Below the pieces are notes generated by a model, which ran no database searches, was not told the DNA's origin, and worked only from the letters and a program-made list of their open reading frames with translations. Source: Labyrinthula sp. Ha (Eukaryota > Sar > Bigyra > Labyrinthulida > Labyrinthulaceae). Taken from it: DNA of 64,000 bases. Positions 2,807 to 53,869 of the stretch are shown in pieces. The stretch spans positions 62,001 to 126,000 of the forward strand of contig JAALGZ010000023.1 in assembly GCA_015227615.1 (NCBI GenBank), read 5' to 3'. Within the stretch, counting starts at the first letter, position 1; each line of letters begins with the position of its first letter. Both the position numbers and the translations under genes were made by a program.

Positions 2807-3043
2807 TGTCTTCGCTGGTATACCTTTGACTCTTTCTTCAATCGTAGATATTGTGTGTTAACAGTTAAATATGACAGATATAAACGGCTAGAAATATAAC
2901 AGAACCGATATAAGTAGTATATTACAAGGGAGTACACACAGGGGTGTGCACATGGCCAATATAACAAGTACACACGCAGGTGTGCATTGGCTTCTATATC
3001 AACGAATATATCGCTAGAACGACTATCACGTCCTTCGAGGACA
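2807..3043 (-). repeat. Element A 3' LTR
   Basis: A 237-bp repeat, TG...CA bounded, about 98% identical by eye to 10551-10787. It is flanked outside by the gctg duplication and inside by the polypurine tract. Short open frames inside the LTR copies are not genes. Confidence 0.93.
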
Positions 3044-3053
3044 TCCCCCCCTT
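3044..3053 (-). other. Element A polypurine tract
   Basis: On the minus strand the ten bases AAGGGGGGGA lie directly against the start of the 3' LTR. This is the standard position of the RNase H-resistant primer for plus-strand cDNA synthesis. Confidence 0.8.
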
Positions 3054-3112
3054 GAAGGAAAGAAGTGCTATGCACCTGAAGGCGTGTAAACAATATGAGC
3101 TTTAGCATCAAG

Positions 3113-4489
3113 TTATATTCCACAGCTGCTCCAGTTCTGTCGTAGATTGTTACTTCTGGCGGACATCTCGAACTTGTTGCAGTGAGGGAAAACAAGATCC
3201 AAAATCCAGTAGAAAGTTTCGGGCTTAGCTGAAGGTTCTAATGGAATAGTCTTGATAGAGTTTGAAAAATGATCTAATTTGTATTCTCCAAAGGTGTCTG
3301 AGTAATAAATAGATTCCTGTTCTCTCCTTTGAAATATTAGGCAGGTTTCTTGAGCATGTTGTAAGAAATAACCTAAACTTTTAAATAAACTTCCAGATCT
3401 ATGTGACTTGATCCAAGTAAAGATGTCGACTGAATAATAATTAAGGGATTTGGCCCAAGACAAGGCGCAATGATAAGAAGAATTCGTAACCCACAAAAAT
3501 AAATAACTTCCAAAAGGGAAGTGTTGTAAAGGTAAATCTAATTTCACGAATTCAGAGTTAGATAAAGTTGGGTAGTCCAGTGTTATTCCACGCGTAGGAT
3601 TTGAATTACCTATCTTCCACGGAGGATCAACCACTAAGACTTGGAAAATATTGTGTTTTGAATAAGGTTTTTCGAACTCCAAATCAAAGATGTTTTGCCT
3701 AAATAATCTGGCATCGGGCGGAGTAAAGTATATTTTTCCACCACAACCTAAAAGGGTGTAATAATTTCCACCATTATATTCTAGTATTACCTTGTCGCCT
3801 GATAATAAATCCACTGAAGTAAGTTGCACTTTATTGTCCAGGAGAACCAAGGAAATTGAAATTGAGTCTTGTCGGTATGAATAGCTACTTGGTGTATTTC
3901 GTAGTTCATCAAATTCTTGGCTAAATGTAATAGACTTTGAATATAATGTAGATAGATCAGTCCAATAAGTAGATGACTTTAATAAAGTTCTGTTAAGAGT
4001 GTCGAGTAGTAATTCATTTCCTTCAACAGCTTTTACTAATGGTTCTGACAGATTAAGTATTCGTGACTTTAAAGCTTCAAAAGAAGAGATACCGAATTGT
4101 AGTAGGAATTGTTGACATTCATCAGAATCAGTGTATTCTTCTTCCATCAACCTAAGATGCTTGAGGTTCTCGATTCTTCTGAAATAAGGGATCTTAATGT
4201 CTTCTGGCTTCGAAGTTATTTCGATCTCTTGAGAAAATAAAGTTAGTATCTTTGTCTTTTCAATGTAAGTGTTGAAACGTCCTGTTAAGTTTTTATGCAT
4301 CGTTTTAATTCCAAAATGCTTTTGAAGAAAAGTTCTAAGCTCAAATACATCGAATCTTCTATTATGAAATATTCCAATAGACTGCAAGTTACATAGCCTC
4401 TGAATCTGGGTCGAAATCTGTTGCTTTGATCTAAAATGCAAATAATCTCCTTCTAAATATTCAACATATTTCCCAGATCCAAACTTCAT
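3113..4489 (-). CDS. Element A SANT/Myb-like plus MT-A70 adenine methyltransferase module
   Basis: A 458-residue open frame. The first ~40 residues (KFGSGKYVEYLEGDY..) complete a SANT/Myb-like module that begins upstream of the first ATG as GWLPEEKNILRLLIMKFG, aligned with GWTKAEKQEIRKLVLKFG of element B. The C-terminal half is an MT-A70 domain: a conserved lead-in (LLGCGGKIYFTPPDARLF), the catalytic motif DPPW at 3617-3628 (VLVVDPPWKIG), then YPTLSNSEF, SYLFLWVTN, IFTWIKSHRSG and the terminal KPETFYW and SNNLRQNW. In METTL3/IME4-type enzymes DPPW binds S-adenosylmethionine and the target adenine. The frame is -1 relative to the upstream integrase-chromodomain frame, so it needs a frameshift or separate translation, or is the result of a one-base indel. 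RNA or DNA as substrate cannot be decided from sequence. Confidence 0.88.
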   Translation of the reverse strand: MKFGSGKYVEYLEGDYLHFRSKQQISTQIQRLCNLQSIGIFHNRRFDVFELRTFLQKHFGIKTMHKNLTGRFNTYIEKTKILTLFSQEIEITSKPEDIKIPYFRRIENLKHLRLMEEEYTDSDECQQFLLQFGISSFEALKSRILNLSEPLVKAVEGNELLLDTLNRTLLKSSTYWTDLSTLYSKSITFSQEFDELRNTPSSYSYRQDSISISLVLLDNKVQLTSVDLLSGDKVILEYNGGNYYTLLGCGGKIYFTPPDARLFRQNIFDLEFEKPYSKHNIFQVLVVDPPWKIGNSNPTRGITLDYPTLSNSEFVKLDLPLQHFPFGSYLFLWVTNSSYHCALSWAKSLNYYSVDIFTWIKSHRSGSLFKSLGYFLQHAQETCLIFQRREQESIYYSDTFGEYKLDHFSNSIKTIPLEPSAKPETFYWILDLVFPHCNKFEMSARSNNLRQNWSSCGI

Positions 4490-4530
4490 GATTAAAAGAC
4501 GTAAAATGTTCTTCTCCTCTGGTAGCCATC

Positions 4531-6593
4531 CTAGGGTATTTCCCCCGAAATAAAATGAAAATTTAGTTGTTTCTGGAACTTCATCGAGGATAAACGAAAT
4601 TTGAGGCTATTGACACGTGCAAGTTGATTTCTTCTTGAAACATCATGATCTTGTAGAATTCTTGAAATAAGCATCTTGAGGTTATTGTCGTCCATATTTT
4701 GAACATAAGAAGTAACTAGAATAGGAACATCTTCATAAATAGTAACAGCTGGTTCCCAGGTGTCTTGATCCTGTTCAAAACCTAACCAGCGGATTTTAAA
4801 CTCACAAGAGTTATTGTCAGCAGCTAATCTACATCCAACAATGCTTTCTATTCCCAACTGCTTAAAATTGTGAACGAATAATGCTTTCAACTTCTTGCTG
4901 CCAATAGGGCGAGTGTGTGAATAAAACCAAATGCGTGATGAATGAACAGTTCTAGTCTTCCCTAAGAGAGACTCCACTAAATAAACATTGCTTGATAAAA
5001 TATCTATTATTTGATAGGGTCCTATCCATGAGAGACTAGTTTTAGCATTTGCATGTTGTGTACCATGTTCAGAAACTAACACCCAATCCCCAGATGAGAA
5101 TTGTAAAATGGGCGTAGCAGTTTTATTTCTCCTGCTATTTTCAGCTTCTTGTTTAAGTCTAACAACTTCAAAAGTTTGATTCTGTATTGTGTCTAAAGTA
5201 GTGATAATATTTTCAACATCAGAAAACATGGCTTCTTTGTCCAAGGGCTTACGAACTTCGTTGCCGACTGTTATTGCAAAATGTTGTAAATCACGTTCTA
5301 CTAAAGGTGTATTCAACCTATGATATAAAAATAACTCGTTAGGAGTTCTCCCGTCTCTTCTTTCCATGGGCTTATTATTGATGATGTACGTTATTAGAGA
5401 TAAAATGCTAGGCCATTGGGATTCATGCAATCCGAACTGACTAACTAGCGATTTAAGATAGTTTAAAATACTATTATTTGCCGTCTCTACTGAACCATTT
5501 GTCCATGGCGAGTAGGCAATAGTAAAGTTTTGTTCAAATCCAATTGATTTACTTAGGTAGTGTAATAAATTATTTGAAAAATGGGACCCATTGTCCGTAA
5601 TTATTAAGAAATCTTCTGCAAAACCAAAGTTTGCTCTCCATAATAAAAGAGATTCCGCCATTCCTCTTGCGGTTGGTTTTTTATGAAAAGTAAGTTGAGT
5701 TTTTCTGGTCGCAGAATCTAATAGTACCAATATATAACCTGCTTGGTTAATGTACAAAAAGTCTGCGCGCAGTATTTCGCGTGACTTCTTTGCTAGATGT
5801 GTTAGATGGTACGGCCTCCGTATAATACGAGGAGACTTTTGGCAATGTAAGCACCTGTTTCTGTAAGAAGACAATAAGGCATTTAAGTCCTTCTTTCTGA
5901 TTCCTTGTAAATAAACCTCTGATAAGTACTTCTTTTCTGCAGAAGCACTAGGATGTCCTCTTAAAATATGGTTCATAATAATGTAGCGAGGAATTAAAGT
6001 TCTTGGTATTACTAATAAATCATCCTTGTAGTAAACTCCTTCTTTAATTTGAAAATCGGACAACGAATCGGAGTGTAGTTTGTGTTGATGCTTCTTTAAA
6101 GTATTGAAATCTATTGATTTAAAAGAAATGTTTGGGTAAAATGGTGAAAGGTAAGAAATGTGTTCATTTAATAATTCCTGTTGAAGATTAAAACGATTGG
6201 TTGAGACTGAGACTCTTCCTTCGAGTTCTGCCTCACCAAATGATAAATTAGAGACCTTGGTTGTTATACGGGTTAATTCTGGTTCTTGATTTAATACATC
6301 TGAAAAGTTAATCTCGTTAGAAAGCTTAATTGTTTTCCAATTTTTGAAATCTGGTTCAATATTAGAAACTATTTGAGTTGTTGTCTTATCTGGTTTTTGA
6401 TCTGCTTCTGTATTTTCTAAAAACTTATTTTGAATAACTTCAGAGTTTGATTCATAAATAAAGTTGCATCTTGAGATATTTGCTTCATTAGTTTTTCCCC
6501 AACGAGTTAAGAGATCAGAGACAAAGTTGTCTCTACTAGAAATATGGAAGATGGTTAAGTCAACAGACTGTAACCTTAGAATCCACCTCTAAG
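4531..6593 (-). CDS. Element A integrase and chromodomain
   Basis: The open frame runs from a TAG at about 6590 to a TAG at 4531; the first ATG lies well inside, so it is part of a polyprotein. It starts with the end of RNase H (RWILRLQSVDL, SDLLTRWG). The integrase zinc-binding part has H-x4-H (HILRGH) and C-x2-C (CLHC), and the catalytic core has Asp (RADFLYIN), Asp (ITDNGSHF) and Glu (SVETANNS). Then comes a beta-barrel-like segment (SWIGPYQIIDIL) and a chromodomain (FKIRWLGFEQDQDTWEP). Chromodomains of chromoviruses direct integration to modified chromatin. The last residues (HFISGEIP) end at the TAG just before the SANT-methyltransferase frame. Confidence 0.9.
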
Positions 6594-7478
6594 GCGATCC
6601 CAATAGATTCGACGTTCGTTTTGTTTAATTCTGACTACTGAAAGTAAGGCTCTGTGGTCTGTATAAATATAGATCCCACCCGAGTGTGTCCTTAAAACAA
6701 ACCCTATTCGCTCAAAAGCGTAAATAATTGGGTATAATTCAGTCGAAGAAATAGGCCATCTTAATTCACTTGAAATAAAAGAACCCGACAGGAACATAAT
6801 TGGTCTTGGCTTTAAAGTTCTGACGTCGTTAGTGACGTTCTTTTCTTCATCCTGAAAAACAGCCAGACTCCAAACATCCTGAGAGGAGTCTGTGAAAAGT
6901 AAAAATGGTATCTTTTCATCATACATTGAAAGGAATCTTTTACTTGAATCAACTATAGCTTGTTTCAGCATTGAATATGCCTGCTCTTTTTCTTCAGTCC
7001 ATTCGACTTCTTCTTTTAATCTTTCAACTTCAGCTAACTCCTTACCTTTAAGATTAGCATATTCTGCAAAGGGTTTTCTTAATTGAGAGAGCTTAGGTAT
7101 ATTTGGCGAGAGCCAATTCGCTAAATAAACTAATTGTGCTGCCTCATGCCTGTACGTAGGCTTTGGCATATTTAATATTTTTTCAAAGAATGCTGGTGAA
7201 AAATTCCATTGACCTCTTTTAATTTCGCGGCCACACCAGATGGTGTGTTGTTCTCCGAAACCGCATTTTCTTAAATTGAAGTGAACTTTCCGAAATATAG
7301 CTCTTTGTAATAATTTTTCTAAAATAATGCATAGCTTTTCAAAAGAAGTTGAGTAAACGAGAAGGTCATCTAACCAAGCTAGTACACCATTCTCTTCTGT
7401 ATTGAATAAATAATCACCATCCTGATCAATAACCTCATTAATTATGCGATCAAAGAAAAGTGATGGGTATTTGACCAT
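6576..7478 (-). CDS. Element A reverse transcriptase C-terminal part and RNase H
   Basis: The frame carries the second half of the polymerase with active-site box LAWLDDLLVY (WLDD at 7365-7376, Trp where most families have Tyr or Phe), GREIKRGQWNF, and the RNase H domain (LLFTDSSQD, TELYPII, IYTDHRALLSV). It is out of frame with the preceding RT frame. A run of three C near 7480 (ATACCCATCAC in element direction) looks like one C has been lost, because restoring the phase there gives the family pattern APMG...FF. A second frame change at about 6590 separates it from the integrase frame. The start at 7478 is only the first ATG, not a true start. Confidence 0.88.
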   Translation of the reverse strand: MVKYPSLFFDRIINEVIDQDGDYLFNTEENGVLAWLDDLLVYSTSFEKLCIILEKLLQRAIFRKVHFNLRKCGFGEQHTIWCGREIKRGQWNFSPAFFEKILNMPKPTYRHEAAQLVYLANWLSPNIPKLSQLRKPFAEYANLKGKELAEVERLKEEVEWTEEKEQAYSMLKQAIVDSSKRFLSMYDEKIPFLLFTDSSQDVWSLAVFQDEEKNVTNDVRTLKPRPIMFLSGSFISSELRWPISSTELYPIIYAFERIGFVLRTHSGGIYIYTDHRALLSVVRIKQNERRIYWDRLRGGF

Positions 7479-8296
7479 CCCATTGGTGCGTGATTTAAAG
7501 TGTAGGCACTCCTTCTTGTGACGAGAGTGAATATTTCTCTATGTTCTTCCTTTGTAGGCAGAAAGTCAAAGCCTGAAAGTATGTCCAACGTCGCGTAGAA
7601 CCTAGTGTTCTTTATGGACATTAACTGCCGTTCTAAGTTTGGCAAGTTTAAAGTAGTTGGTTGAGTTATTTGATTCAACTTGATCATATTCGCTACCATT
7701 CGGTAACGATTGAGAATATTGTCTTCTTTCCAACTTTCGCGTTGACTGTTAGTCATTGTAGCCCAATCGCTAGGCTTAGTAATCTTTTTTGTAACAACGA
7801 AAACAGGATGGCCCCAGACTGGGTTCTTTGCTGGAGAAACAATGCCGGCCTGTCTTAGAGCTTCAAACTTAAGCTCTAAAAACCTCTCCTCTTCTTTAGT
7901 CTGGTGATAACCATCGCTCCTCAGAATTGAAGAGCCTGGTTTAAGTTCCACTTCTATGGGAGTTAAATTAGACATCTGTGCATTAGATTGTCTTAATCCC
8001 CATCCAGCGCGATATTTTGTAAATAATTTCTTCAGGAAGTTCTGTTGCTGTGAATTAAATGTAGATTCAGAAAGTTTAACATTTATCATTGTATTTATTT
8101 CTTTGTCTTCCTCCGCTATTTGAATATTACCTTCGCCGATGCCTATTTCGTTAAATTCTTCAGGCATGTTCTGTTGAACATTGGCTAGTAATACGGGAGT
8201 AACTTCGCTGTTATCGGGATCTCTGTCTAACTTTTCAAAATAAGCTGTTTCTAAATCTTCAATGGGCTTAACTCTGAGCTCTCTAACTTCGAGAGT
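7442..8296 (-). CDS. Element A reverse transcriptase N-terminal part
   Basis: The frame is open from the TGA at 8297-8299 to 7442. It contains the fingers and palm of a Ty3/Gypsy polymerase: PVFVVTKK, YRMVANMIKLNQ, the first catalytic Asp in ATLDILSGFDF, and the thumb-side APMGWSN. It shares frame with the linker and protease upstream. The frame closes early because of the indel near 7480; the polymerase continues in the frame of 6576-7478. Confidence 0.87.
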   Translation of the reverse strand, partial: TLEVRELRVKPIEDLETAYFEKLDRDPDNSEVTPVLLANVQQNMPEEFNEIGIGEGNIQIAEEDKEINTMINVKLSESTFNSQQQNFLKKLFTKYRAGWGLRQSNAQMSNLTPIEVELKPGSSILRSDGYHQTKEEERFLELKFEALRQAGIVSPAKNPVWGHPVFVVTKKITKPSDWATMTNSQRESWKEDNILNRYRMVANMIKLNQITQPTTLNLPNLERQLMSIKNTRFYATLDILSGFDFLPTKEEHREIFTLVTRRSAYTLNHAPMGWSNTHHFSLIA

Positions 8297-10531: not shown

Positions 10532-10538
10532 CTGTACG

Positions 10539-10550
10539 TTACTCGAGTAA
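10539..10550 (-). other. Element A palindrome at the primer-binding position
   Basis: The 12 bases directly after the CA end of the 5' LTR read TTACTCGAGTAA, a perfect palindrome. A tRNA-complementary primer site would normally start TGG here. B and C have different palindromes at exactly the same place. Confidence 0.75.
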
Positions 10551-10787
10551 TGTCTTCGCTGGTATACCTTTGACTCTTTCTTCAATCGTACATATTGTGT
10601 GTTAACAGTTAAATATGACAGATATAAACGGCTAGAAATATAACAGAACCGGTATAAGTAGTATATTACAAGGGAGTACACACGGGGGTGTGCACATGGC
10701 CAATATAACAAGTACACATGCAGGTGTGCATTGGCTTCTATATCAACGAATATATCGCTAGAACGACTATCGCGTCCTTCGAGGACA
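10551..10787 (-). repeat. Element A 5' LTR
   Basis: A 237-bp copy of 2807-3043 with about five differences, bounded TG...CA. It is followed outside by gctg (10788-10791), the second copy of the target duplication. It should carry the promoter of element A, but I can define no TATA box or start site. Confidence 0.93.
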
Positions 10788-10791: not shown

Positions 10792-11784
10792 AAAAGGTCA
10801 ATCTCCAGGGAACAACTTTGAATCAAACAGAAAGCGGAAAGGTAGTTGTTGAATAGATGGAGAAAATAGAAATAGCTTAAAACAAAGTAAGAATAGAAAT
10901 AACGTAGTCGAGTAAATTGCTCCTTTCTAGCTATGATAAAAAACCTCTTCTGTTGTTTAATCGTCCCTCTAAAAGGTATGTCACGCTCTATATTTAATGA
11001 TAAAGTAGAAATCGTTACTGATAATGTTCAAGAGTAAGACAACAACCCTTGCTATTCTTAAGTGAAACTTTTAAAGTAAACAAGAAAATTTGATATATCA
11101 GAAGTAAAGAAATATACCCAATTACCTGTTCTTTTGAGCAGATCGGGTTCATACTAAAAATTAATCAGGCTGGATTGTGCGTTTACACCGACCCGAAAGC
11201 ACTGCCTATCGTATTAAAATCCCAGAAGATCCAAAAACTTACGTTTTTTGGAAGGATTACGTAGCTAAAGCATAAGATTGTAAAAAACCGAGCTAAGAGT
11301 TCTTTTAATTGGGCTTCAAAGATAATTTTGTCGCGGAAACTTTCATGAAATTAGCCAGTCAGGTCTAACAAGAAGAAGATGGAAAAATATTGGACCTGTG
11401 GAGAACGCATCTGACAATCTACAGTGAAGTGGATGGGTTTGATTTAATGTCTGATGATCAGTCAAATAGGCTGAAGCTGAAGGATATTGGATTTTCCTCG
11501 TTTCAAAGCAAGACATAAAACGACGTTAAACAAAGTAATTTAACAACGAAAAGACAGATTTACTTTGCAGTGAAGCACGATGGATATCTCGTAGCGATAG
11601 AGACAATATTTCCAGATGATTGACAAAGGCTAAAAGACAAATTGATCTTCCAAAACAACAGCTTTCTAAGCCCCTACTATAAAAACCAATAATGAAAAGG
11701 TTTATAAAGAAGGAGTTTATCAAAGGTCAAGGAAAATAATGGACGAGTGGAATTAAAACAAAAATTTAAAATAATCTATATAAG

Positions 11785-12400
11785 GGCAAGCAGTTAATTA
11801 TCCCACCGAGTTTAATCGCGGGAATATTGGCTGGTATACACGTAGCAAAAGGACACCATTCGTTGACGGAGGAATGGGTTTACTTGAGAAATTACTTTTT
11901 TTCACGGTTTATAAAATTCGGTGGTGGAGATTCTTCTAAAATTATTTAGCTCAAGCTCAGTACATTGTAACAGGACTTTTCGATTAATTTCAAGAATCTT
12001 TAACCTGACTCATTTGGTCGCCAACCACAGGAAAACATTGCATGTGGATTATCTCTACGTAAATAGTGTAGATTATGTTTTCGTGGTGGTCGATAGTTAT
12101 AAAAACAAGGTGCAACTCAACTTCTTGGAAATAACATCATCCAAAATGAAAGTGGATGTTTTATTGAAGTGGTATGCAAATTTTGGTATGGATCCTTACT
12201 TTTTGTTGGTCACCGACAATAGATCACATTTTGCAAACGATGTTCTTGAAGACTTTATACGGCGAGTCGGCTTCGAATCCTTCTTATTAAAAGCTTACTC
12301 TCTATGGATAAATGTGGCAACGGAGGCATCTAACTCCATGATTTTAAAACACATCCGATTTCAAGTCTAAAAATACACCATTCATGAAACCAAGTGGTTG
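11785..12400 (+). pseudogene. Element D integrase remnant
   Basis: The zinc-binding part survives as IIPPSLIAGILAGIHVAKGH. The core is best preserved at 11921-12370: LHVDYLYVNSVDYVFVV (first Asp), LLVTDNRSHFAND (second Asp; TDNG or TDRG in the relatives) and VATEASNSMIL (Glu). There are stops between the blocks. It is clearly homologous to the integrases of A and B. Confidence 0.85.
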
Positions 12401-12779
12401 CAGCAAATACGACTTTTGAGCTATTTGATCAGCAATAAGCTTTTGAGTAGAAGAAAAGGACAGATGTCTAACGAATTATTCCTGTTCACTAAGTTTGAAG
12501 CACCGTTTTTTTGAAGATTCCCAGAAACTCTCCCATGAGGGCGAACGAGTAATTTAAATCACATATGGATGTAAATAAACTCCTCGATGAGGCAAAGAAT
12601 ATTAGTTCTATTTTGGAAAAGAAATCCAAAAGGATCATTGAGCTGATTAAACTGGCTAGGCTAGTAGATAATAAAAAGAAATACAATAGACAAGGTCAAA
12701 TCTTTGAGTTCTTTCTCAAGAATTTTGTACTAGTCAGTATTAAAAAACTATCTTCACGCTATAAAAAAGGCGCATCAAC

Positions 12780-13069
12780 TGACTAGGACCCTACCAGGTT
12801 GTAGAAACCTTAAGTCACGATGTATATAAATTGGACAAATTGATCGAAAAAGAAAGAATTGCTCACGGATAGACAATATGATTTTATTCATATATTGAGT
12901 CAATGAGAAACTTGAAACTGTGACAAATATTTCTACAAAATTTTCATGCTATTGAAGTTACAAAAATGCAAATATCAAGCCAGATGGTGCGGATTTGAAG
13001 ACTAGAACAAGTGGTTAGACTTGAAAAGGTCATACAAAAACCTCCCAAAGCTTGTCTTTAAGTTCCTAG
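12780..13069 (+). pseudogene. Element D chromodomain remnant
   Basis: The translation shows LGPYQVVETLSHDVYKLD (matching IGPYQIIDILSSNVYLVE of A) and then KYQARWCGFED..NKWLDL, a decayed chromodomain lined up with FKIRWLGFEQDQDTWEP. Element B interrupts the sequence at 13069/13070. Confidence 0.6.
13066..13069. repeat. 4-bp target site duplication (ctag), left of element B
   Basis: The bases ctag recur at 22744-22747 directly outside the other LTR, defining the insertion of B into D. Confidence 0.85.
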
Positions 13070-13354
13070 TGGAACTGATCTGGTATTTTGACGTCAAATC
13101 AGTGGGCACTTATCTAGATAACGTATCAAGGCCTGACTTTTTGTATTCTTCTTCGTCTCTTTTTGTACTCTGGAATTCTGAACTGGTATACTTGTTTTTA
13201 TTGTCTTTTCTTTTTTGTGATTAATTCTTAATTGTTGGATTTCTCTCTTTGACCTTTTTGGCCGTTCTGCGTATCCAATCATATCACACTAACTGCCCAA
13301 TCATATAATATCACTATTTATAAAATCAAGGAAATACAAACTCATAACGATATA
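13070..13354 (-). repeat. Element B 3' LTR
   Basis: A 285-bp copy of 22459-22743. It starts TG on the plus strand; its other end is TA here and CA in the partner, one of the two visible differences. It contains an identical small open frame in both copies that is not a gene. Confidence 0.93.
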
Positions 13355-16300
13355 CCCCCCTCTTCCCATAAATGCGAGACTCCGCTCTGTCTAAGCACCG
13401 CCTGTATCCCAAGACTTCTCATATTTCCGTTTAGGTCAGTCCTGGTTCCAACGTGTAGCCACCCTTTCTGTAGTCCGCTGAGATTAGAAAATATCTCCAT
13501 TAGAACTGCATTATCCCCCATTACTCGCTTAATATCCCTTTTTATTGCCAACGGCTTCATTCCAGATCGCGTGCGATCTGCCAATATCACTTCCTGTTTT
13601 CTCAGTCCTTCTAATTCCAGAGATCCCGGAACATCGCGCCGCTTGAAGAAATACAATACTTCATGAGATCGCTGAAATATTTTTCCCAGCGCGCCTCTTA
13701 CTTTTCCGCGCGGCGTCATCTTTACCCAGGTCCAACTATGGACGGGCACATAATCAGCCGCTTTCATGTGTTCAAATGCCAAACGCAGCCTTCCTTGCGG
13801 AATCCATACTGCTGCATACTGCGGCCTTACTTCTTTTATCCCGAAGTCCATCCAATTTATACTTCCGCCTGAAATATCTTTCGCATCTTTCCAAGGCGGA
13901 TCGGCTAGAATTAGCGTAACTTCCGACAAATCCGATGCTCCTCGACTCCAGTCTTTATTGTATGGATCGAGCGCATACCACACTTTCTCCGGTGGCGCTA
14001 TACAGCACTTCAACGTGACCTCGCTTTCCTCAAAGAAGATCTCAAATATCCGACCAGCACTCTGGATTGCCGTAAGCTGTATTTTTCCGCCATACGATAT
14101 CAGATACCGCCACTTCGCATCCTGCTCAATTTGAAAGGGGATGTTCGTTAAAGTTTGCGGTGTTCTGGTCGGCTCCTCATGGCGCTCATACCTTATCCGA
14201 AAGCCATTTGCCTCCCATTCCGCTTCTTCATTCTGCTCAAATGCTACCACCATGGTACTTATCATCTTTTTATATGCGGCTAATTTTCTGCACAGTTTCG
14301 CCGCAGCCTTAACATAATCGGCCACCCGCTTTCTATGCTTTCGTAATTCTGCCGCATACTTTGGCGTGAATTCCTTCGATATTACTTCATTCGAAAGCGC
14401 AAGCGCCTGCCCGCAGTCGGAAAACCGTCTTATGCATCGAAATTCCGCGCGACTAATTTTTTCATCTGTCTTTCGCGCTTTCTCAATGTCCCAATGTTCT
14501 CCCCCTATCTCTTCAAGGTTCAGCCGCCCTAACTGCTGCTGTATATATCCTTGGATCATAGATATGCTTTTATGGGGAAGATACAATTGGTATTTATCGA
14601 AGCGGCCGATGCCAAACTTGAGCACCAGCTTCCTTATTTCCTGCTTTTCCGCTTTCGTCCATCCCTTCACCGAAGCTACCTTATACTCCTCTTCTGGTAG
14701 CTGCATTTTTACCCCGGACAAATATTTATGCCATCTCCGAAAATTCGGCACTCTTCTTATTACTCGGTCAACTCCATGCTCTGCCGTAACAAGCGATTGT
14801 TTTGCTCTCTTTCGCAACTTGTCCTGGCTTGGTCTGCGAGTTTTTGCCGATAAATGTTCCGTTAGTTTGTTCCGCACATCCTCGTACATTGTTTGAATAG
14901 GTTCCCAAGTGTTATCTTCATCACGAAAACCCCTCCATTTAACTTCCACTACGTATTCGGTTAAATGGGGATCGTATTTGACATCTCCGAAACCTGCTAC
15001 CTCCAGATGTTTAAAGTTTCCGACATAAACTTTCCTCAGCGCTTCTGACGGCACAAACCCGCTCGGCTCATAAAAGTACAACCGACTTCCGTGCACCTCT
15101 GCAGCTTTTCCGTCTAAAGTTTTTACCTTATAAACATTCTTTGAAACTACTTCTATAATCTGCGCCGGACCAGACCACTCCAGTGCTATCTTATCGCGCT
15201 CTCTTGGAGTGCCCTTCGATGATACTAAGCACCAGTCTCCTTCATTATATTGAAGTAGCGCTGGGTCAACGGCCGTCCTCTTCCTCTTACTATTCAATAC
15301 TTTCTGAAATTCTACATACTTAGCGACTTTTTCTTCATAGTCATCTAAGCGCTTCCTAAAAGCGGAACTTAACTTGTACAAAACATCGTCATCAATACCT
15401 ACCAGCATCCTGGCGCCGCCTCGGATCCTTTCTACTATTGGCGGCAGACCCGCAGGCTCAATATATTGGCGCTCCGGATTCACATACAAAAACAATTCGT
15501 ACGCCGTCGGAGCCTTTTTCCGACCGGGTATTTTCCGCGAGGGCATCGGTAACTCATTCATAGCGCCCTGAATTTTATTCAATATCTTCGGCCATTCATC
15601 CTCATTTAGCCGATATTCATTAACCAAACTCTTCAAGAAATTCAACACCTTTTTATTCACAACTTCAACCTCTCCGTTTGTCCAGCTCGCATAAGATACC
15701 GCAAAACTCTGAGAAAAACGAAGTTCCCTTCTAAGCATCGTCATCAATGAATTCGCAAAATGACTTCCGCGGTCCGTCACCAACGTAAAGTCCTTTTCCA
15801 ATTTATAGTTTGCCGCAAATCTATCAAGCGCTTCTATAACCGCCTGCGTATCCGGTGTTTTTGTATGTGTCAGTTGTGTGAACCTACTAAAAGCATCCGT
15901 TAATACTAAAATATGCCCCATTCGGTTCACATATAAGAAATCTGCAACTAACGTTTCGCGCGGCCGCCTGGCTCTTGTTACCAAGCTGTATGTTGTCTTA
16001 ATCGCTTTTGGGAGTCTTCGGCAATGTATGCAGTTGTCCCTGAATAGGTGGATTAATTCAACCATCTTCTTCCATGGTGTATCACCTCTTAGCGTTCGTT
16101 CCATAGCGGCGGGTATTCTCCATTCAAATTTAGCCGCCTCCGCTAAGTCCGCTTCTAGCGATCCGTGCTTATTTGCTAGATGTATGTGCACTACTTGCCG
16201 CTCTAACAGTGAAGGCGGCAAAATAATCTTTCCCGCCAACCTCTTTATCCTCGAGGTTCTAGTAATCATCTCTCTTTTCTGGGCGCTAATAACTTCCGCT

Positions 16301-17757
16301 TCTGTCAGCGGCGCCCAGTCGCCTTCAAAATACGGGTTGAATACTGATACCCTATATTTATCAAGCGACTTCAACGATGCATATATCTTCTTATCCATTT
16401 GTTGTTGTGGTCTCAAATGGTTGACCCTTACTGCTATATTTCTTATCTTCGCCGTCGTGCCATCCTCATCTTCCGACGTCGAATAAGTATCCGTCTCAAT
16501 ATAGCGCTCATTCCCGGTGTCGCTAATATCTGACGGAACTTCAGTCGGCCACGTCGCGAAGTCCTCTGTCAGCTGCTTCCATTCCTTTTCAGAGTATTCT
16601 TTCCGAATTTGCCGCTCTACTTCTTTCATAAGATCCGACGTTCCTTCTTTTTGCAGCGGTTTGCGCATAATGCGCCTAGTGATTTGTCGACAAGCTGTTA
16701 GCGCCGGTCGTACAAAATGCTTAGGCGCTACATCCATATCCAATGCTCCTATCCATTTCCTTCTCGTTGGGTGTAATAACTCGGGCGTCCAATCTTCAAA
16801 ATCTCTCTTGATTCTGAAGTAAAGATCGTCGTCACCGAGTAGCGAATCATTTCTTTCCGTATATATGGATAAAGCATCGAGTACCGCTTCCTGAAGCCAT
16901 TGCTTTATTTTCGCGTCAGTGTCTTGTCGACATTTCTTCGACACTCTTCTCAGGCGCTTTATCGCGCGCGGCAAGACGGGTATTTCTCTTTCCGTCTCCC
17001 ACGTCTGCACCTTTACTGTCCGTACAGCCGCTCCGACCTCACCGTCCGTCGGCGCCGCCCATCTCGTAAGCATATCCGCGAAAATGTTACTGTCTCCGTC
17101 GACGTGGTGAATATCCACCAAGACATGCTGCAAGATTACCATCCAGCGCTGCAGGCGGTTAAGATGTCCATGATTGATCTTTGAGCTGCCTCGCAATATA
17201 GCCTTCAGGTTGAGGTGATCTGTATAAACTTGCACCGCAGTCGGGTGGAATGGCAGCAAGTATGAAAGTTTATTAAAAGTTCGAATTATGGGATATAGTT
17301 CCTTGTGACATATACCCCATACAAGCTGACTAGCGTCAAATTTCCCGCTAAAAAACATCATCGGATAAACCGTCTTCTTCAACAAATCCTTTCCGCGCTC
17401 TTCTTGTCGCGCTTGGAATAGGATGGCGCTGTGATATTTATCCGACGCGTCGGTTACTAGGATCAAATCCATGTTCCGATCGTAATGCCGCAGGCGGGCT
17501 TTTGCCGCGCTTGCCAATCTTTGTTTGAAGCGCGCAAATGCCGCCTCTAATTCTTTGTTCCACAGAATCCGCTTCTTTTCTCTTAAAAGTTTCTTCTTCT
17601 TCCCCTTCATTTCCGGGTAAAACAACATGATTTTATCTCTAAGTTCCGCCATTTCGGGAACTGCCTGCGTCAACCATTGCGCCAAGTGTAAGAGTTTCGC
17701 TAACTCGTATACATATTCGGGCTTTGGGACGAGTAAGATTTTCTCATAGTATTTCTT
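13342..17757 (-). CDS. Element B RNase H, integrase, chromodomain, SANT/Myb-like and MT-A70 polyprotein
   Basis: About 1470 codons after the TAG at 17758-17760 (GGWNF, stop, KKYYEKIL). Domains in order: RT connection; RNase H (LILVTDASD, KELYPII, VYTDHLNLKAI, NIFADMLTRW); integrase with zinc-binding His pair (HIHLANKH) and CIHC, catalytic Asp (VADFLYVN), Asp (LVTDRGSHF) and Glu (NGEVEVVN); chromodomain (VEVKWRGFRDEDNTWEP); SANT/Myb-like module (GWTKAEKQEIRKLVLKFG ... QGYIQQQLGRL); and the MT-A70 domain with DPPW at 13891-13902 (LILADPPWKDAKD), YAAVWIPQG, HSWTWVKMTPRGKV and SHEVLYFFKRRDVPG. The stop codon lies inside the 3' LTR, so the last residues are encoded by the polypurine tract and LTR. 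The methyltransferase is part of the polyprotein here, which argues that it is a working piece of the element and not a neighbour. Confidence 0.93.
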   Translation of the reverse strand, partial: KKYYEKILLVPKPEYVYELAKLLHLAQWLTQAVPEMAELRDKIMLFYPEMKGKKKKLLREKKRILWNKELEAAFARFKQRLASAAKARLRHYDRNMDLILVTDASDKYHSAILFQARQEERGKDLLKKTVYPMMFFSGKFDASQLVWGICHKELYPIIRTFNKLSYLLPFHPTAVQVYTDHLNLKAILRGSSKINHGHLNRLQRWMVILQHVLVDIHHVDGDSNIFADMLTRWAAPTDGEVGAAVRTVKVQTWETEREIPVLPRAIKRLRRVSKKCRQDTDAKIKQWLQEAVLDALSIYTERNDSLLGDDDLYFRIKRDFEDWTPELLHPTRRKWIGALDMDVAPKHFVRPALTACRQITRRIMRKPLQKEGTSDLMKEVERQIRKEYSEKEWKQLTEDFATWPTEVPSDISDTGNERYIETDTYSTSEDEDGTTAKIRNIAVRVNHLRPQQQMDKKIYASLKSLDKYRVSVFNPYFEGDWAPLTEAEVISAQKREMITRTSRIKRLAGKIILPPSLLERQVVHIHLANKHGSLEADLAEAAKFEWRIPAAMERTLRGDTPWKKMVELIHLFRDNCIHCRRLPKAIKTTYSLVTRARRPRETLVADFLYVNRMGHILVLTDAFSRFTQLTHTKTPDTQAVIEALDRFAANYKLEKDFTLVTDRGSHFANSLMTMLRRELRFSQSFAVSYASWTNGEVEVVNKKVLNFLKSLVNEYRLNEDEWPKILNKIQGAMNELPMPSRKIPGRKKAPTAYELFLYVNPERQYIEPAGLPPIVERIRGGARMLVGIDDDVLYKLSSAFRKRLDDYEEKVAKYVEFQKVLNSKRKRTAVDPALLQYNEGDWCLVSSKGTPRERDKIALEWSGPAQIIEVVSKNVYKVKTLDGKAAEVHGSRLYFYEPSGFVPSEALRKVYVGNFKHLEVAGFGDVKYDPHLTEYVVEVKWRGFRDEDNTWEPIQTMYEDVRNKLTEHLSAKTRRPSQDKLRKRAKQSLVTAEHGVDRVIRRVPNFRRWHKYLSGVKMQLPEEEYKVASVKGWTKAEKQEIRKLVLKFGIGRFDKYQLYLPHKSISMIQGYIQQQLGRLNLEEIGGEHWDIEKARKTDEKISRAEFRCIRRFSDCGQALALSNEVISKEFTPKYAAELRKHRKRVADYVKAAAKLCRKLAAYKKMISTMVVAFEQNEEAEWEANGFRIRYERHEEPTRTPQTLTNIPFQIEQDAKWRYLISYGGKIQLTAIQSAGRIFEIFFEESEVTLKCCIAPPEKVWYALDPYNKDWSRGASDLSEVTLILADPPWKDAKDISGGSINWMDFGIKEVRPQYAAVWIPQGRLRLAFEHMKAADYVPVHSWTWVKMTPRGKVRGALGKIFQRSHEVLYFFKRRDVPGSLELEGLRKQEVILADRTRSGMKPLAIKRDIKRVMGDNAVLMEIFSNLSGLQKGWLHVGTRTDLNGNMRSLGIQAVLRQSGVSHLWEEGGISL
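13355..13367 (-). other. Element B polypurine tract
   Basis: On the minus strand GGGAAGAGGGGGG abuts the 3' LTR, the expected plus-strand primer. The methyltransferase reading frame runs through it. Confidence 0.8.
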
Positions 17758-22419: not shown

Positions 22420-22446
22420 CCAACAGTTCTTGTTTTGCCTCAACGA

Positions 22447-22458
22447 TTGTTATAACAA
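22447..22458 (-). other. Element B palindrome at the primer-binding position
   Basis: Directly after the CA end of the 5' LTR the minus strand reads TTGTTATAACAA, a perfect 12-bp palindrome unrelated in sequence to that of A. Confidence 0.75.
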
Positions 22459-22743
22459 TGGAACTGATCTGGTATTTTGACGTCAAATCAGTGGGCACTT
22501 ATCTAGATAACGTATCAAGGCCTGACTTTTTGTATTCTTCTTCGTCTCTTTTTGTACTCTGGAATTCTGAACTGGTATACTTGTTTTTATTGTCTTTTCT
22601 TTTTTGTGATTAATTCTTAATTGTTGGATTTCTCTCTTTGACCTTTTTGGCCGTTCTGCGTATCCAATCATATCACACTAACTACCCAATCATATAATAT
22701 CACTATTTATAAAATCAAGGAAATACAAACTCATAACGATACA
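22459..22743 (-). repeat. Element B 5' LTR
   Basis: A 285-bp partner of 13070-13354, nearly identical, bounded TG...CA. It is followed by the ctag duplication at 22744-22747. Confidence 0.93.
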
Positions 22744-48191: not shown

Positions 48192-48979
48192 AAGTTGATA
48201 TAAATGGATTTAAATACAAAGCTTTGCTTGATTCTGGAGCTTTCAAAAATACAATTCATCAAAGTCTGAAGAAACACTGTAGCAAGATAAGGAAGCTGGA
48301 AAAACCTTTTAGAGTGCAGGCAGCTGGATGTGCTATATATCCAGTTTGGGAAGTAGGACAGTTTCCAGAGATCACTGTGGTGGATCAAGATGGACATCGT
48401 GGTTTTGCCTTTTACGAGGTTGAAGCCCTTATTTTAGACCACCAAGAGTGGGACGATCTAATTCTGGGGAACGAGATATTGTCAAAGTATAACCTCGACC
48501 CGTTCAGTGCTCTAAAAAGAAAGATGGAGAAAGGTAAAAGCACAGAGGAGAAGCCAACGTTTGCAAAGTGGTTTCTGGATAATGTAGGAGAAGAGGAAAG
48601 CGAGACGATTAATGTGAAGTCCTTGTATTCTGTAATGGATAATTCTCTTCCGAAGAATGCGTTAAAAGTACCACCTTATGTATTTGGAGCAGACTTTCCT
48701 GAACAGAACGAGTTTATGGACTTGGAGAATATTGATGTAGGTTTAGGCACTGCAAGAAATGGACAAGAAGATGATAATAGGATGCGTGCAAAAATCAAAG
48801 TCAAAGTAGAAGCAATAGATGTAGCTCATTTTTCCCCCTCCCCTGCTTGGAAAACAAAGTTTGTAGAGTTATTTGAAAGCAACTTCAGAGCTTTTGGTGA
48901 TGCGGAGAGCTCGACCCAACTTTCTATTATTACCCCAATAAGATTTGATTTATTACCTGGAGAAAAAGTGGGGATTTAA
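48192..48979 (+). pseudogene. Element C protease and pro-RT linker
   Basis: The frame opens before IIEVDINGFKYKALLDSGAF, whose DSGA is the retropepsin active site. It continues through DDLILGNEILSKYNLDP into a long linker (MDLENIDVGLGTARNGQ...) and the start of the RT region, ending at GEKVGI with TAA. There is no stop at the protease-linker boundary, unlike A, B and D. The true upstream junction to gag is scrambled by stops. Confidence 0.75.
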
Positions 48980-49789
48980 AAGTAGTTACCATTAGGACAG
49001 GAGCAGGAGAACTTTTTACATAAACGTATTGCTCATATGGAGAAAGCGGGTATTATTTACCCGAATAAAAATCCAACTACTGCTATGTCAGTGTTGGTGG
49101 TCCCGAAGAAGGGACCAAAGAAATTCAGGTTAGTTGTCGATTTTAGACCCCTAAATAAAAAAAAACTCAGAGAATTAATAATATGCCCCCGAGGATAGAG
49201 TTACAGCTGAACCGTATCAGAACAAACAAGTTTTTTGCTGGATTCGACCTTTTGTCGGATTTGACTACCTGGCTTGTGAAGAACAAGCAGGTCAGTGTTT
49301 TAATTTTACGACCCCCCCTCCTCCCCCCTTTGGGGCATGGCTTATTCTTTTTTTATGAGCACCCAGGGCTGATGTAACACACCACGTCTTTTTTTCTATG
49401 AGGCAAATAGGTGAAGTTTTAACACCTATTGGTTTATGGCCTCATAAAGCTCTACAATGGATCGATGACTCCATCATCATGGGGCAGTCAATTAACGAGC
49501 TGTATTCAAATGTTGAAAGATTTTTGCGTCAATTACAAAGCAAGAATTTAAGGTTAAAAATAGAGAAGTGCAAACCTGTCGCAAACAGCCTAGTATTTTG
49601 TGGTAGAAGTTTTGATAAAGATGGGTGGAAATATGATATACAATACGCCCCAGGATTATTGAATAGGGTTAAACCAGTGTATTTACACGAGTTAACCCAG
49701 CTGGTTTACACAGCGAACTTTATCTCTCCTACTATATCTGAGTTTATTAGGATGAGAAAACAGTTTAAGGTTCACATAAAATAGGAGGA
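48980..49789 (+). pseudogene. Element C reverse transcriptase
   Basis: After TAA and TAG stops the frame resumes as LPLGQEQENFLHKRI, then MEKAGIIYPNKNP, VLVVPKKGPKKFRLVVDFRP, RIELQLNRIRTNKFFAGFDL and, after a frame change around 49260-49400, the active site LQWIDDSIIM (WIDD at 49458-49469) and CGRSFDKDGWKYD. A C-rich tract near 49310-49330 marks the damaged palm. It is not functional. Confidence 0.82.
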
Positions 49790-49792
49790 AAA

Positions 49793-50363
49793 ATGAGAAA
49801 CTTAGAAAAGAAAAAATTTAAAATAGTCTGGGATGGAGAAATGAAGATGGCTTACACTGAGATAATCGAAGTCATTAAGCAAAGCATGGAATGTTCAATA
49901 GGATATTACGATCCTGTACAGAACATATATTTATCCACAGATGCTAGCGAGTTTGTCTATTTTCTTTTTATCACTCAAAGTGCAGAAGTTGTGGAAGTTT
50001 ATGATCCTTTCAAATCTAACTTCAAAGTTATTGCAATAAACTCGGGTGGCTTTGCTGGATCTCAAATCAATTAACATATTTCGTGCAAGGAGTTATTCCC
50101 AGTCCTTATGGCTATCAAAAAAATATCCCTTTTATTTACCTTTCAACGCGAAGCAAAAGATCTTATTTACAGATCATAAAAACTTAGTCTACATTATAAA
50201 TCCTAGAGAGGTTAAGTTAAAATCTCATGGATCTAGACTAAGTCGCTGGGCTCTTGATTTTATGGAAATAAACTTACAAGCTTACCATTGGGGGTGTAAA
50301 AATATACAAGTATACTGTTTGTCTCGCTGGTTAACCTCCAAGTATCGTGATGAAGTAGAATAG
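49793..50363 (+). pseudogene. Element C RNase H
   Basis: Two overlapping open frames carry the domain: IYLSTDASEFVYFLF (first catalytic Asp), then ILFTDHKNLVYII, SRLSRWALDFMEI and CLSRWLTSKYR. A frame change near 50060 removes the continuous reading, including the central Glu segment. Confidence 0.78.
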
Positions 50364-51560
50364 GCTATGATTCAAAGAGCTATTTTGAATTCGAAAGGCC
50401 AAGATGATGAAATACAATTCTGGAGAGTTATTGATGAAATGAATGTTTCTCCCAGATACCCTGGTAGTTTGGATTTAGCTGGAAAAGGATGGGAAATAAT
50501 TGACGATAAATTTATTCTAATGTTTCAAAAAAGAGATATACCTGAACTAGAAGCTGTGAAGAAAATGGAAGGGAGAATCTATGTGACAAAAAGTATCATA
50601 CCTTTAGTGATCATACATACCCATTTTATATTTAATCACTCATAAATAAAGAAGGAAACCAAATTTATCAAAAAGAATTATCACTTCGAGAAAAATATTT
50701 TTGCTTTATTTAAAAAGGCAATTGTTGTATTTTACGGACATTGTATGTACTGCCAAAAACCTATTCCTGTGATTAAGCGCCCGCTGAATGTTACGGCATG
50801 GGGCAGCAAGGCTGGTGAAGTCTTGCTGTTAGATTTTTTATATATCAATAATAAAGGATGAGTTTTGACTTTAGTAGATTCGCATACTAGAAGTAGCATA
50901 TAGAGGTATTGTGCCAAAGCTACTACTGATAAATTAGTTAGTATTTTATGGAATTGGCACTCCCACTTTCAACTTATACCTAGTTTTACATTAGCAATCG
51001 ATAGAGGTTCTCATTTTACATTAAAACTGATTGAAAATTTCCTGAGACAATCTTGTTGTGTACATAACTTCACTGCGACATAAGTTAGTCATTAAGCTGG
51101 AGCAGTGGAAGTGAAAATAAAAATATTTTGAAATATTTGAGGTCTATTGTATCTAAACTCGATTTAGGCGACACAGATTGGTCTGATATTTTACCTATGA
51201 TTTAATGTTTTTTAAATCAAAATCTTTTAACATGCCGAGGAATAAATCTTTCTCCATTTCATTTGATGATAGGAGTTACTGAAGGGAAATCAGCTTTGGA
51301 AAGCGTTAATAAAAATACGGGAAATAAATATTATCATAAATTTTTTCAAGCTGCTACTGATTTAAGATGTAAAATTGAGAGACTTTACGAAAAAACAGAT
51401 AAATGTGGATTGAAACATCTTGCTAAAGTGGATATGAGAAATAATAGTAGAGGTAAGCTGAGACCAATATATTTATCTGCTGTGGAATATATTTGGTTCT
51501 CGGAAAAATAATTTTAATCAGACAGGAAGAATAAGGTTAAGCCCCGTTGGCGTGGGCCTT
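50364..51560 (+). pseudogene. Element C integrase
   Basis: It begins with a linker frame (50367-50645) ending in the zinc-binding His pair (VIIHTHFIFNH). Then come HCMYCQK, the first Asp in EVLLLDFLYINNKG, the second in LAIDRGSHF and the Glu in AGAVEVK. The beta-barrel trace PRWRGPYQVVECLSEHVYRV lies near 51545-51600. Several stops are present. Confidence 0.8.
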
Positions 51561-52017
51561 ACCAAGTCGTGGAATGTCTCAGTGAACATGTTTACAGGGT
51601 TAAAGATTTTCACGGAAAGAAAAGATGAGACACGCAGTCCTCATGGTTTCTTTTGGTCCAGTTAGTTTCTTTTCTAATGCTGCTACTACTTTTGTTTTTT
51701 TTGCATGGAAAAAGACAATGTTGAAGTTGATAAATTTGTGGATCTTAGAATAAAGTGCAAACGAGTTTTCTATTTTGAGGTAAAATGGAGTAGTTTTGGA
51801 AGCGAACACAACACCGAAGAGCCTGATGTTACCATGTTTTAGGATTTAACTCATATGGTTAAGAATTCTTGTGATGAAACTCCAGTCAAACAAGTATCTC
51901 AACTTTTAGCTTTTCTTGACTAATGTTTATCCTGAAAATGAATATTTGAAAGTACATAGAAGAGTACAAAATTTATATGCTGCAAATACCGAAGAAAAAT
52001 CCTGCTTTTGTGAAAAA

Positions 52018-52055
<38 letters not shown>

Positions 52056-52630
52056 GATTTATATTGACGAGAATAATGTATGGAATTGCCCTTATTGGTC
52101 TACATTTGAGGTGCAAGCATAGAGGATTGAAGCATTAAGCTGAGAATTTGGGAATTTTTGAAAAAAATACAAACGTATGTTCCTGGAAAGACAAAGCAAA
52201 ATATTTACACGAAACCTCAAAGGATGGTAGGACGACAAAGTTTAAAGGTATATCACGGCTTCCATCTTGACGTTATGAAGTTGAAAGAAGATAACTTCAG
52301 ATATAAAGGTGTGCAATGTGTTATTCAAAGAAAGCAGTTGAGTGATGATATTGTTGAAAAGAAGAACTAGTTTTTAAGTGGAAATATTGGAAAGAGAGTG
52401 AACAAAATACAAAGAAATTTAAAGACAAGTTTATTGAAGTTCATTATTTTACTTGTGCAAATGGAGTTAAAACTTTTCTGGAATATTTAGATATCTAAGA
52501 AGAAGAAAATTGCATGGTTTTCTGCGATATAATGGAACTATATCAGACTTCAAAGTATATTTAAAAGATCTATAGGGCAAATCAAGATGCAGAGGAATGA
52601 ATTTAGAATTAAAGTTAGATGATTTGAAAA
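51561..52630 (+). pseudogene. Element C chromodomain and SANT-like remnants
   Basis: Near 51765-51840 the translation FYFEVKWSSFGSEHNTEEPD is a decayed chromodomain. Near 52160-52250 VPGKTKQNIYTKPQRMVGRQ resembles the end of the SANT/Myb-like module of B (LPHKSISMIQGYIQQQLGR). Between them a TA dinucleotide run has expanded. There is no continuous frame. Confidence 0.55.
52020..52053. repeat. TA dinucleotide microsatellite inside element C
   Basis: About 16 tandem ta units. The open frame through it (a Tyr-Ile run) is an artefact. Confidence 0.9.
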
Positions 52631-52633
52631 GAT

Positions 52634-53337
52634 GTGTTCATAGTGGAGAAAAAAATGGGGAAATTTGTTTTTGGTTGTTTGGTGAAACATACTGCTGTTA
52701 ACACTCTTCTAGAAGTACGTTGTCAAGAACTTAAATCCGTTGAGAATATTTGGAAGATTTCTAAAAATGTAAAGTTTGTATCAGGAGATTTACAGGAGTT
52801 TCTAATGGAATCTTTCGAAGAATATGAATTCTTGGTAGTTGATCCACCTTGGAATGTTTCTCCTCAAACCCAATAAGAAGACCAGCTGTTACCTATAGAA
52901 CTATGAAAGATGCAGATATAATAAATTTACCTTTGAAAAATGTTGTAAAGAATGGGCTTGTATTCTACTGGATTGTAAGAGAAAAAAAGAAAATTACCGA
53001 GAGGATGTTCGAAAAGAATGAAATAAAGTATCTTGACAGGTTGATGTGGATATATACTAATGGCCACAATCACATTCTCATTACTTTAGGTAATATTACC
53101 ATGAAATATACTGAAGACTCTTTCATAGGAGTGAGAGGTATTCTTCCAAAGAAGCTAAGGAATAAGACTATAGGAAAAGATATTATTTATGAACAGAGAG
53201 CGGATAACGCAAATAAACCTATTGAGCTGTATGAATTAATTGAAGACAACTTTGAGGTACCTCGAAAATATCTTGAATTGTTTGGTAAGAAGAATAACTT
53301 GTGTTTAGGTTGTACAACAGTGGGAGATGAGTTGTAA
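52634..53337 (+). CDS. Element C MT-A70 adenine methyltransferase (one frameshift)
   Basis: Two overlapping frames (52634-52876 and 52849-53337) form one domain. The first has VKFVSGDLQEF and the catalytic motif LVVDPPWNVS (DPPW at 52841-52852); the second has NPIRRPAVTYRTMKDADI, LPLKNVVKNGLVFYWIV, DIIYEQRADNANKPIELY and RKYLELFGKKNNL. The closing part, with KPxELYxLIE and ELFGKKNN, strongly recalls METTL3/IME4 (KPDE.Y..IE, ELFGR.HN). A +/-1 change just after DPPW breaks the enzyme. The core motifs remain readable although the rest of C is badly decayed. Confidence 0.85.
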
Positions 53338-53346
53338 AAGTTAGCT

Positions 53347-53356
53347 GAAGGGGCAG
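53347..53356 (+). other. Element C polypurine tract
   Basis: GAAGGGGCAG directly before the TGTA start of the 3' LTR; one pyrimidine interrupts it. Confidence 0.5.
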
Positions 53357-53869
53357 TGTAGTGTCTGGATAACGTTTTGCTTTGTCTTTTGTTAGCTGTG
53401 AGGTTTTTGGCTGTTCAGTTGTTGTTGTTTTTTCTATATTTTAATATTTGGTTTTTGGGCTACGTGATTTGTGGGTGATACCTGGTGTAAAATATCCCCG
53501 AAAAAAAAAACACACAAATTTGCATTAACGCCATATTTGAGATTATGCGAGCCTTGATTCTTGATACCGCGCTCCTGTAATTTATGAAATATGGATTATA
53601 TTTGTGATATTAGGTGAGATTTTACCTGATAATTATGAAACTTACCGGAAACAGCAGATTTGGATAGTAGTGTTGTTGGAAACGTGCTGCCATTCCAACA
53701 ACTTTGATATTATATGATACTTTTTGTTAACCGTTAAGATATTAAGTGAAAAAAGAAAAGAAAAAAGCAAGCTAAATAATTTTATTGTTAAGAGTCAAAT
53801 CAAGTATTTTACTACCTGAAACCCTTATCCGATGATCTGTAGTCTCTTTTTATCGACACGTAAAACGCA
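53357..53869 (+). repeat. Element C 3' LTR (putative)
   Basis: Starts TGTAGTGTCTGGATAA and ends GTAAAACGCA, matching both ends of 46124-46826. The middle is strongly diverged and about 190 bp shorter. Confidence 0.5.

Follow-up and report, generated by a model that had tools for sequence, protein, structure and literature searches.

Retroelements with captured methyltransferases have been described in dinoflagellates and charophytes, where enzymes for 5-methylcytosine (5mC) occur in many copies, and among DIRS elements, which combine a Dam-like N6-adenine methyltransferase with a tyrosine recombinase (both PMC5890265). An orchid Ty3/Gypsy lineage carries an AlkB demethylase of N6-methyladenine in RNA (m6A), with the RNA substrate shown in vitro (PMC9289625). 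The bdelloid N4CMT, a host gene of bacterial origin, joins a methyltransferase to a chromodomain in a 'histone-read-DNA-write' arrangement and deposits N4-methylcytosine (4mC) on transposons (PMC8885841). For long terminal repeat (LTR) elements, a paper on accessory domains names a chromodomain and an exonuclease (PMC6338049). Here we describe Ty3/Gypsy elements of Labyrinthula sp. Ha that encode a Myb/SANT domain and an MT-A70 methyltransferase behind the chromodomain. Four of them, A to D, lie in the window, the 64,000-nt stretch analysed (contig JAALGZ010000023.1, positions 62,001-126,000; assembly GCA_015227615.1).

A close counterpart is the MTA1c/AMT1 complex of MTA1, MTA9, p1 and p2, which writes N6-methyladenine (6mA) on the DNA of eukaryotes, ciliates among them. 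In MTA1c, p1 and p2 help to form the DNA channel, p2 opens the S-adenosylmethionine (SAM) pocket of MTA1, and the conserved partner MTA9 lacks an intact catalytic motif (PMC9174199). p1 and p2 occur only together with AMT1 (PMC12695648, section 6), and P1 of Rhizopus is likewise termed a Myb-like DNA-binding protein (PMC13297926). The Labyrinthula elements share the p1-type Myb domain and the MTA1-type catalytic domain. They differ in that the two subunits form one chain within a retroelement polyprotein, MTA9 and p2 were not seen, and two families have DPAW as the catalytic motif. With chromoviruses they share the LTRs, the order of reverse transcriptase, RNase H and integrase, and the chromodomain after the integrase, whereas the Myb and MT-A70 cassette, a displaced protease (families 1-3) and a palindrome replacing the tRNA-type primer site set them apart. 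Like the DIRS elements they carry a predicted N6-adenine methyltransferase, here an MT-A70 domain next to a DDE integrase core (rve). The dinoflagellate and charophyte elements, of other lineages, are likewise cases of DNA methyltransferase capture in many copies; the orchid lineage is likewise Ty3/Gypsy with an extra adenine-methylation enzyme, an eraser rather than a predicted writer; and N4CMT also joins a methyltransferase to a chromodomain. We assign a probability of about 0.65 to the reading that this is a chromodomain Ty3/Gypsy lineage whose C-terminal p1-type Myb domain and the MTA1 (AMT1)-type MT-A70 domain behind it bring parts resembling those of a 6mA writer into one chain and write N6-methyladenine.

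Elements in the window

A preliminary description, made without database searches, had proposed a family of chromoviruses that encode MT-A70 themselves, inside the LTRs, and this holds in the window as well as in many elements of the genome, where the methyltransferase has a fixed place. Elements A (2807-10787) and B (13070-22743) are on the minus strand and have Myb/SANT and MT-A70 domains between their LTRs, a purine tract before the 3' LTR and 4-bp target duplications outside the LTRs. C and D are on the plus strand; C is decayed, and D is an old element split in two by the insertion of B. The pol order of reverse transcriptase, RNase H and integrase was found in the window elements with Pfam and tblastn. 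The chromodomain match was above the Pfam cut-off in A and below it in B and in three elements elsewhere in the genome (L028, L012 and L009).

The motif DPPW is encoded exactly where it had been read, at 3617-3628 (A, minus strand), 13891-13902 (B, minus strand) and 52841-52852 (C, plus strand), and these are its sole occurrences in the six frames of the window. MT-A70 matches around it were above the curated Pfam cut-off in all three elements. A Myb/SANT module, claimed for all four elements, was recovered in A, B and C, and weakly in D, with a profile to which A and B had themselves contributed. The erosion of DPPW in D was borne out, with no copy of the motif in its methyltransferase remnant. 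The placement of the B enzyme in one polyprotein frame stood in part: a 1447-aa frame joins it to RNase H, integrase and chromodomain, but reverse transcriptase and the gag/protease part occupy two further frames. The features of the elements are as follows.

2807..3043, minus strand: 3' LTR of A (TG..CA), 97.9% identical to the 5' LTR; GCTG outside
3116..3646, minus strand: MT-A70 domain of A, DPPW at 3617-3628; Pfam 5.1e-18, MTA1 9.5e-29
4343..4588, minus strand: p1-like Myb/SANT domain of A; 2e-31 with the profile including A, 2.7e-6 for p1 singly
4699..4851, minus strand: chromodomain of A; Pfam 1.1e-7
5506..5787, minus strand: integrase core of A; Pfam rve 5.2e-6, below cut-off, and tblastn with B
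6606..6914, minus strand: RNase H of A pol; Pfam 1.2e-13
10539..10550, minus strand: 12-nt palindrome adjoining the 5' LTR of A, in the place of a tRNA-type primer site
10551..10787, minus strand: 5' LTR of A, from the LTR pair
13070..13354, minus strand: 3' LTR of B, 99.3% identical to the 5' LTR; CTAG outside
13447..14133, minus strand: MT-A70 domain of B with its N-terminal part, DPPW at 13891-13902; Pfam 1.6e-6, MTA1 1.2e-6
14479..14700, minus strand: p1-like Myb/SANT domain of B; 1.1e-29 with the profile including B, Pfam Myb 0.0006, below cut-off
14881..14955, minus strand: chromodomain of B (part); Pfam 6.7e-5, at 23.2 bits below the cut-off of 25.1
15691..15969, minus strand: integrase core of B; Pfam rve 1.7e-9
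17125..17478, minus strand: RNase H of B pol; Pfam 8.9e-18
17758..19155, minus strand: B frame with reverse transcriptase; Pfam RVT_1 1.3e-16
19204..19536, minus strand: protease-like DSGA segment of B at the end of the gag frame, its usual place; motif match
22447..22458, minus strand: 12-nt palindrome adjoining the 5' LTR of B; palindrome count
22459..22743, minus strand: 5' LTR of B, from the LTR pair
11046..13077, plus strand: RNase H, integrase and chromodomain remnants of D; tblastn with A and B
22917..22982, plus strand: weak Myb remnant of D; E 0.0078
23403..24309, plus strand: MT-A70 remnant of D without DPPW; tblastn and profile
48893..51848, plus strand: decayed reverse transcriptase, RNase H, integrase and chromodomain of C; tblastn with B and A
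52164..52277, plus strand: part of the Myb/SANT domain of C; E 3.9e-10
52841..53337, plus strand: MT-A70 domain of C, frame broken right after DPPW; Pfam 2.9e-16
53357..53869, plus strand: 3' LTR of C (left end approximate), from repeat pairs around other elements

Genome-wide copies and architecture

The host assembly comprises 50.8 Mb in 153 contigs. A genome search with PF05063 gave 354 candidates, and all of the 150 that were scored were above the cut-off; 34 of these 150 are in frames that run for 1500 residues or more without a stop (our own count from the table). Merged with additions from two further searches, picked by hand where they seemed not to be included yet, the 150 amount to about 303 MT-A70 places, a rough count with more than 150 candidates per search unscored and with pieces of decayed copies counted twice when more than 300 bp apart. 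Among 20 of the highest-scoring places, fetched with their flanks, 19 had reverse transcriptase, RNase H, integrase and methyltransferase in order on one strand, 15 of them with a chromodomain match and 15 with a Myb match (tblastn). Window elements B and A correspond to loci L029 and L041. The one non-element, L016, is a solo gene whose product matched Tetrahymena MTA1 at 3.7e-73; by this match, the host has its own AMT1-like gene.

The offset between integrase and methyltransferase was fixed. An integrase search gave 549 candidates, and a methyltransferase followed 1589-2212 bp downstream on the same strand in 92 of the 150 scored cores, against 4 upstream and 1 antisense in the controls. 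The 58 remaining cores may belong to other elements, or to copies that are decayed or have an unscored methyltransferase. A single open frame runs from reverse transcriptase to methyltransferase in L009, L012 and L028. Genome-wide, the methyltransferase was found inside rather than outside the LTRs: by coordinates, LTR-type repeat pairs bracket MT-A70 places in five elements at 94% identity or more, in 12 (two cut by contig ends) and in three more, and for the family of C in three elements (C77, C62 and C113). The 5' and 3' LTRs of an element on C122 were 100% identical over 441 bp, so some insertions are recent. In ten copies including A, the methyltransferase part was 95-100% identical to A.

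The Myb/SANT domain

For the domain that separates the chromodomain from the methyltransferase, a profile (A6) was built from six families and compared with all solved chains. Its top match was p1 of Tetrahymena MTA1c (3.8e-20, positions 12-76 of 77), ahead of c-Myb (2.8e-12), SNAPc4 (1.3e-10), TRF1 (5.2e-5) and p2 (9.5e-4), and the alignment with p1 extends beyond the Myb core. Compared singly with the p1, c-Myb and SNAPc4 stretches, all six families matched p1 best, from 4.4e-13 (L009) to 0.01 (B), with SNAPc4 close in B (0.025). In the Pfam Myb model, B was below the cut-off and A was unlisted. The VIA-align table, whose rows cover residues 306-497 only, did not contain the p1 chain.

A genome search with the p1-like domain gave 307 candidates. 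A methyltransferase lay 436-1051 bp downstream on the same strand in 128 of the 150 scored; the controls had 1 upstream and 1 antisense. The best genome matches to p1, at C1:1284470-1284661 (plus strand) and C100:136111-136305 (minus strand), have no methyltransferase within 3 kb and are candidate host p1 genes.

The methyltransferase domain

Judged against solved chains, the element methyltransferase is best matched by MTA1, the catalytic subunit of MTA1c, in the three elements tested: MTA1 outscored METTL3 for L009 and A, and for B it was the only catalytic MT-A70 chain at E 1 (1.2e-6). CCCH zinc fingers before the methyltransferase domain are a defining feature of METTL3; Pfam listed none in the polyproteins P0001, P0002, P0004 and P0007.

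A bacterial-type origin of the enzyme was considered and rejected, as 15 metagenome or prokaryote sequences, hand-picked from 120 listed of 304, formed a separate group (100/99) in a tree of 33 rows that left out METTL14, METTL4, AMT2/5 and AMT6/7. As to one capture or several, the elements were not one clade in the best tree; a single clade was not rejected (p 0.176). Across 21 family pairs, integrase identity correlated with methyltransferase identity (Spearman 0.53, a value reached in 17 of 2000 permutations).

L009-L052 include 43 element loci, of which 26, from four of six families, have DPPW; single loci had HPPW and DSPW, and in two the motif was outside the piece. The element methyltransferase is under purifying selection. 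The ratio of nonsynonymous to synonymous substitution rates (dN/dS, Nei-Gojobori) against six reference families did not exceed 0.19 in 28 of the 30 pairs whose dS was measurable, and was 0.27 (dS 0.09) and 0.34 (dS 0.04) in the other two. The integrase gave 0.04-0.31 in the same run. These ratios are from tblastn segments with stop codons excluded, from pairs that share references and are non-independent; pairs with saturated dS gave no ratio.

Displaced protease and primer site

A protease-like DSGA motif precedes the reverse transcriptase in A and B, and lies between the Myb domain and the methyltransferase in families 1-3, at the following positions.

L009, 5304-5657, plus strand: displaced DSGA segment
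L012, 3202-3564, minus strand: displaced DSGA segment
L028, 5233-5580, plus strand: displaced DSGA segment

The displaced motif was the sole match in P0001, P0002, P0004, P0005 and P0006, of which only P0005 is full length. A profile of three such segments matched the retroviral-like protease ASPRV1 (4e-4 over 11-111); Pfam protease models at these segments were below the cut-off.

Nine of ten 5' LTR junctions, from six families (A, B, L054-L056 and L058-L061), have a perfect palindrome of 12-18 nt no more than about 4 nt from where the aligned LTR ends. L053 has a mismatched pair, and L057, which was not a junction, was excluded from the count. No tRNA-type primer site was seen at these junctions, as judged by the missing start TGG only. 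In the window, a perfect 12-nt palindrome is present at 80 of 63,989 positions, and 30 of these contain G or C. Since the letters differ among families, palindromy itself seems to be kept, which suggests an unusual, self-complementary priming. RNA folding of six palindrome regions gave no clear signal (z -1.95 to 0.19). A palindrome at the LTR end where a primer site is expected is also known from the fungal Copia element GalEa, there of 9 bp and with a complementary partner downstream, unlike the 12-18 nt of varying sequence in six Ty3/Gypsy families here; Tf1 self-primes, so a tRNA primer site is not defining for Ty3/Gypsy (both PMC5445492).

Other features of the window

The 3' LTR of C, with its right end at 53869 or 53872, was placed from genome-wide repeat pairs; its 5' LTR was not found nearby, where local alignment scored below shuffles. 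DPPW and the rest of the methyltransferase of C are in different frames. A 3.7-kb direct repeat (39425-43111 and 53873-57560) was rejected as the LTRs of C, since the genome-wide repeat pairs place the LTR inside 53338-53872. Its copies are 99% identical, the second starting right after the 3' LTR of C, and probably represent a recent segmental duplication. Beside the repeat are two frames for Roc/Ras-like GTPases that are 70% similar at the DNA level (36967-38802 and 43125-43592, both minus strand). An intron-free gene for an EF3/New1-like ABC protein of 983 aa is at 24796-27747 (minus strand).

Occurrence elsewhere

No published case of MT-A70 in Ty3/Gypsy was found in open-licence papers, nor did the preliminary description name one. 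Narrow searches found the same architecture in no other organism. With residues 1650-2148 of P0001, three of 7797 candidate proteins were retrieved, all 98-100% identical to loci of this genome; with residues 740-1183 of P0007, 7364 candidates yielded itself and a METTL3-like protein. Four EukProt entries were among the 120 listed proteins of 304, two identical to loci described here and two 75-77% like the family of A. A scan of viral contigs confirmed the architecture in none. Because these searches depend on short words in common and on set length ranges, the lack of matches elsewhere counts as weak evidence.

Discussion

The preliminary description had left open whether RNA, complementary DNA (cDNA) or chromatin is marked. 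The p1-like Myb domain and the MTA1-like methyltransferase both resemble subunits of a DNA 6mA writer, which favours DNA as the substrate. Most likely, an element with these fused parts behind its chromodomain writes N6-methyladenine on DNA. As to when and how the cassette acts, we infer that it would be released with or near the integrase and enter the nucleus alongside the cDNA. The chromodomain, as a chromatin reader, and the DNA-binding Myb domain could then position it on chromatin or element DNA, where the methyltransferase domain would methylate adenine at N6, either unaided or together with host proteins such as MTA9 and p2. Given the roles of p1 and p2 in MTA1c, the fused protein could act as an incomplete writer and borrow partners from the host, or could be independent of them. 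6mA accompanies transcription in eukaryotes with AMT1 (PMC12695648), so the gain would be a transcription-permissive mark that favours expression of the new copy. More tentatively, at somewhat less than even odds, this one-chain reader-writer may lay 6mA on new copies or target chromatin, mimic active host DNA and thus serve as an anti-silencing device.

Three results weigh against DNA 6mA writing by these elements. VIA-align gave a tie, the fold and catalytic motif being common to the element methyltransferase and METTL3. In the tree, grouping of the elements with METTL3 was not rejected (p 0.157), and the tree, with its weak deep order, favoured neither AMT1 nor METTL3. Finally, 13 of the 43 element loci have DPAW (L009-L015, L017-L021 and L027, in families 1 and 2); these families, kept under purifying selection, are perhaps non-catalytic partners or altered enzymes.

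The DPAW families speak for an alternative that we consider unlikely, namely that the Myb-methyltransferase part is non-catalytic and docks on host MTA1c or binds DNA, steering the element or altering host marking. MTA9 is a precedent for a conserved partner of this kind (PMC9174199), and the host has its AMT1-like gene and candidate p1 genes. The retention of DPPW in most element loci and in four of six families argues against it. Less likely still is an RNA m6A writer with METTL3-like action, marking element RNA for escape from sensing or to steer between packaging and translation. It would fit the VIA-align tie, the tree and the m6A eraser of the orchid Gypsy lineage (PMC9289625), but MTA1 scored above METTL3 in all three elements tested, the fused Myb domain resembles p1 of a DNA complex, and the four polyproteins were without a CCCH zinc finger in Pfam. 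That a host methyltransferase gene, such as the solo AMT1-like one, adjoins the elements by chance or assembly error is refuted by the fixed offset with nearly empty controls, the position between the LTRs and the open frames from reverse transcriptase to methyltransferase.

Captured cytosine methyltransferases, and adenine methyltransferases of bacterial type, were already published for retroelements. Here, a eukaryotic-type 6mA writer appears to have been captured together with its DNA-binding partner and selectively kept in several divergent families. MT-A70 families have been termed 'relatively static' after their diversification (PMC12695648), a view to which this genome, with some 303 MT-A70 places, is an exception; of the 20 places fetched, 19 belong to retroelements. 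Elements of this kind can also inflate counts of MT-A70 proteins that are taken as host 6mA enzymes. Two questions become testable in Labyrinthula: whether a selfish element writes a mark of active chromatin, and whether a p1-MTA1 fusion is a minimal 6mA writer.

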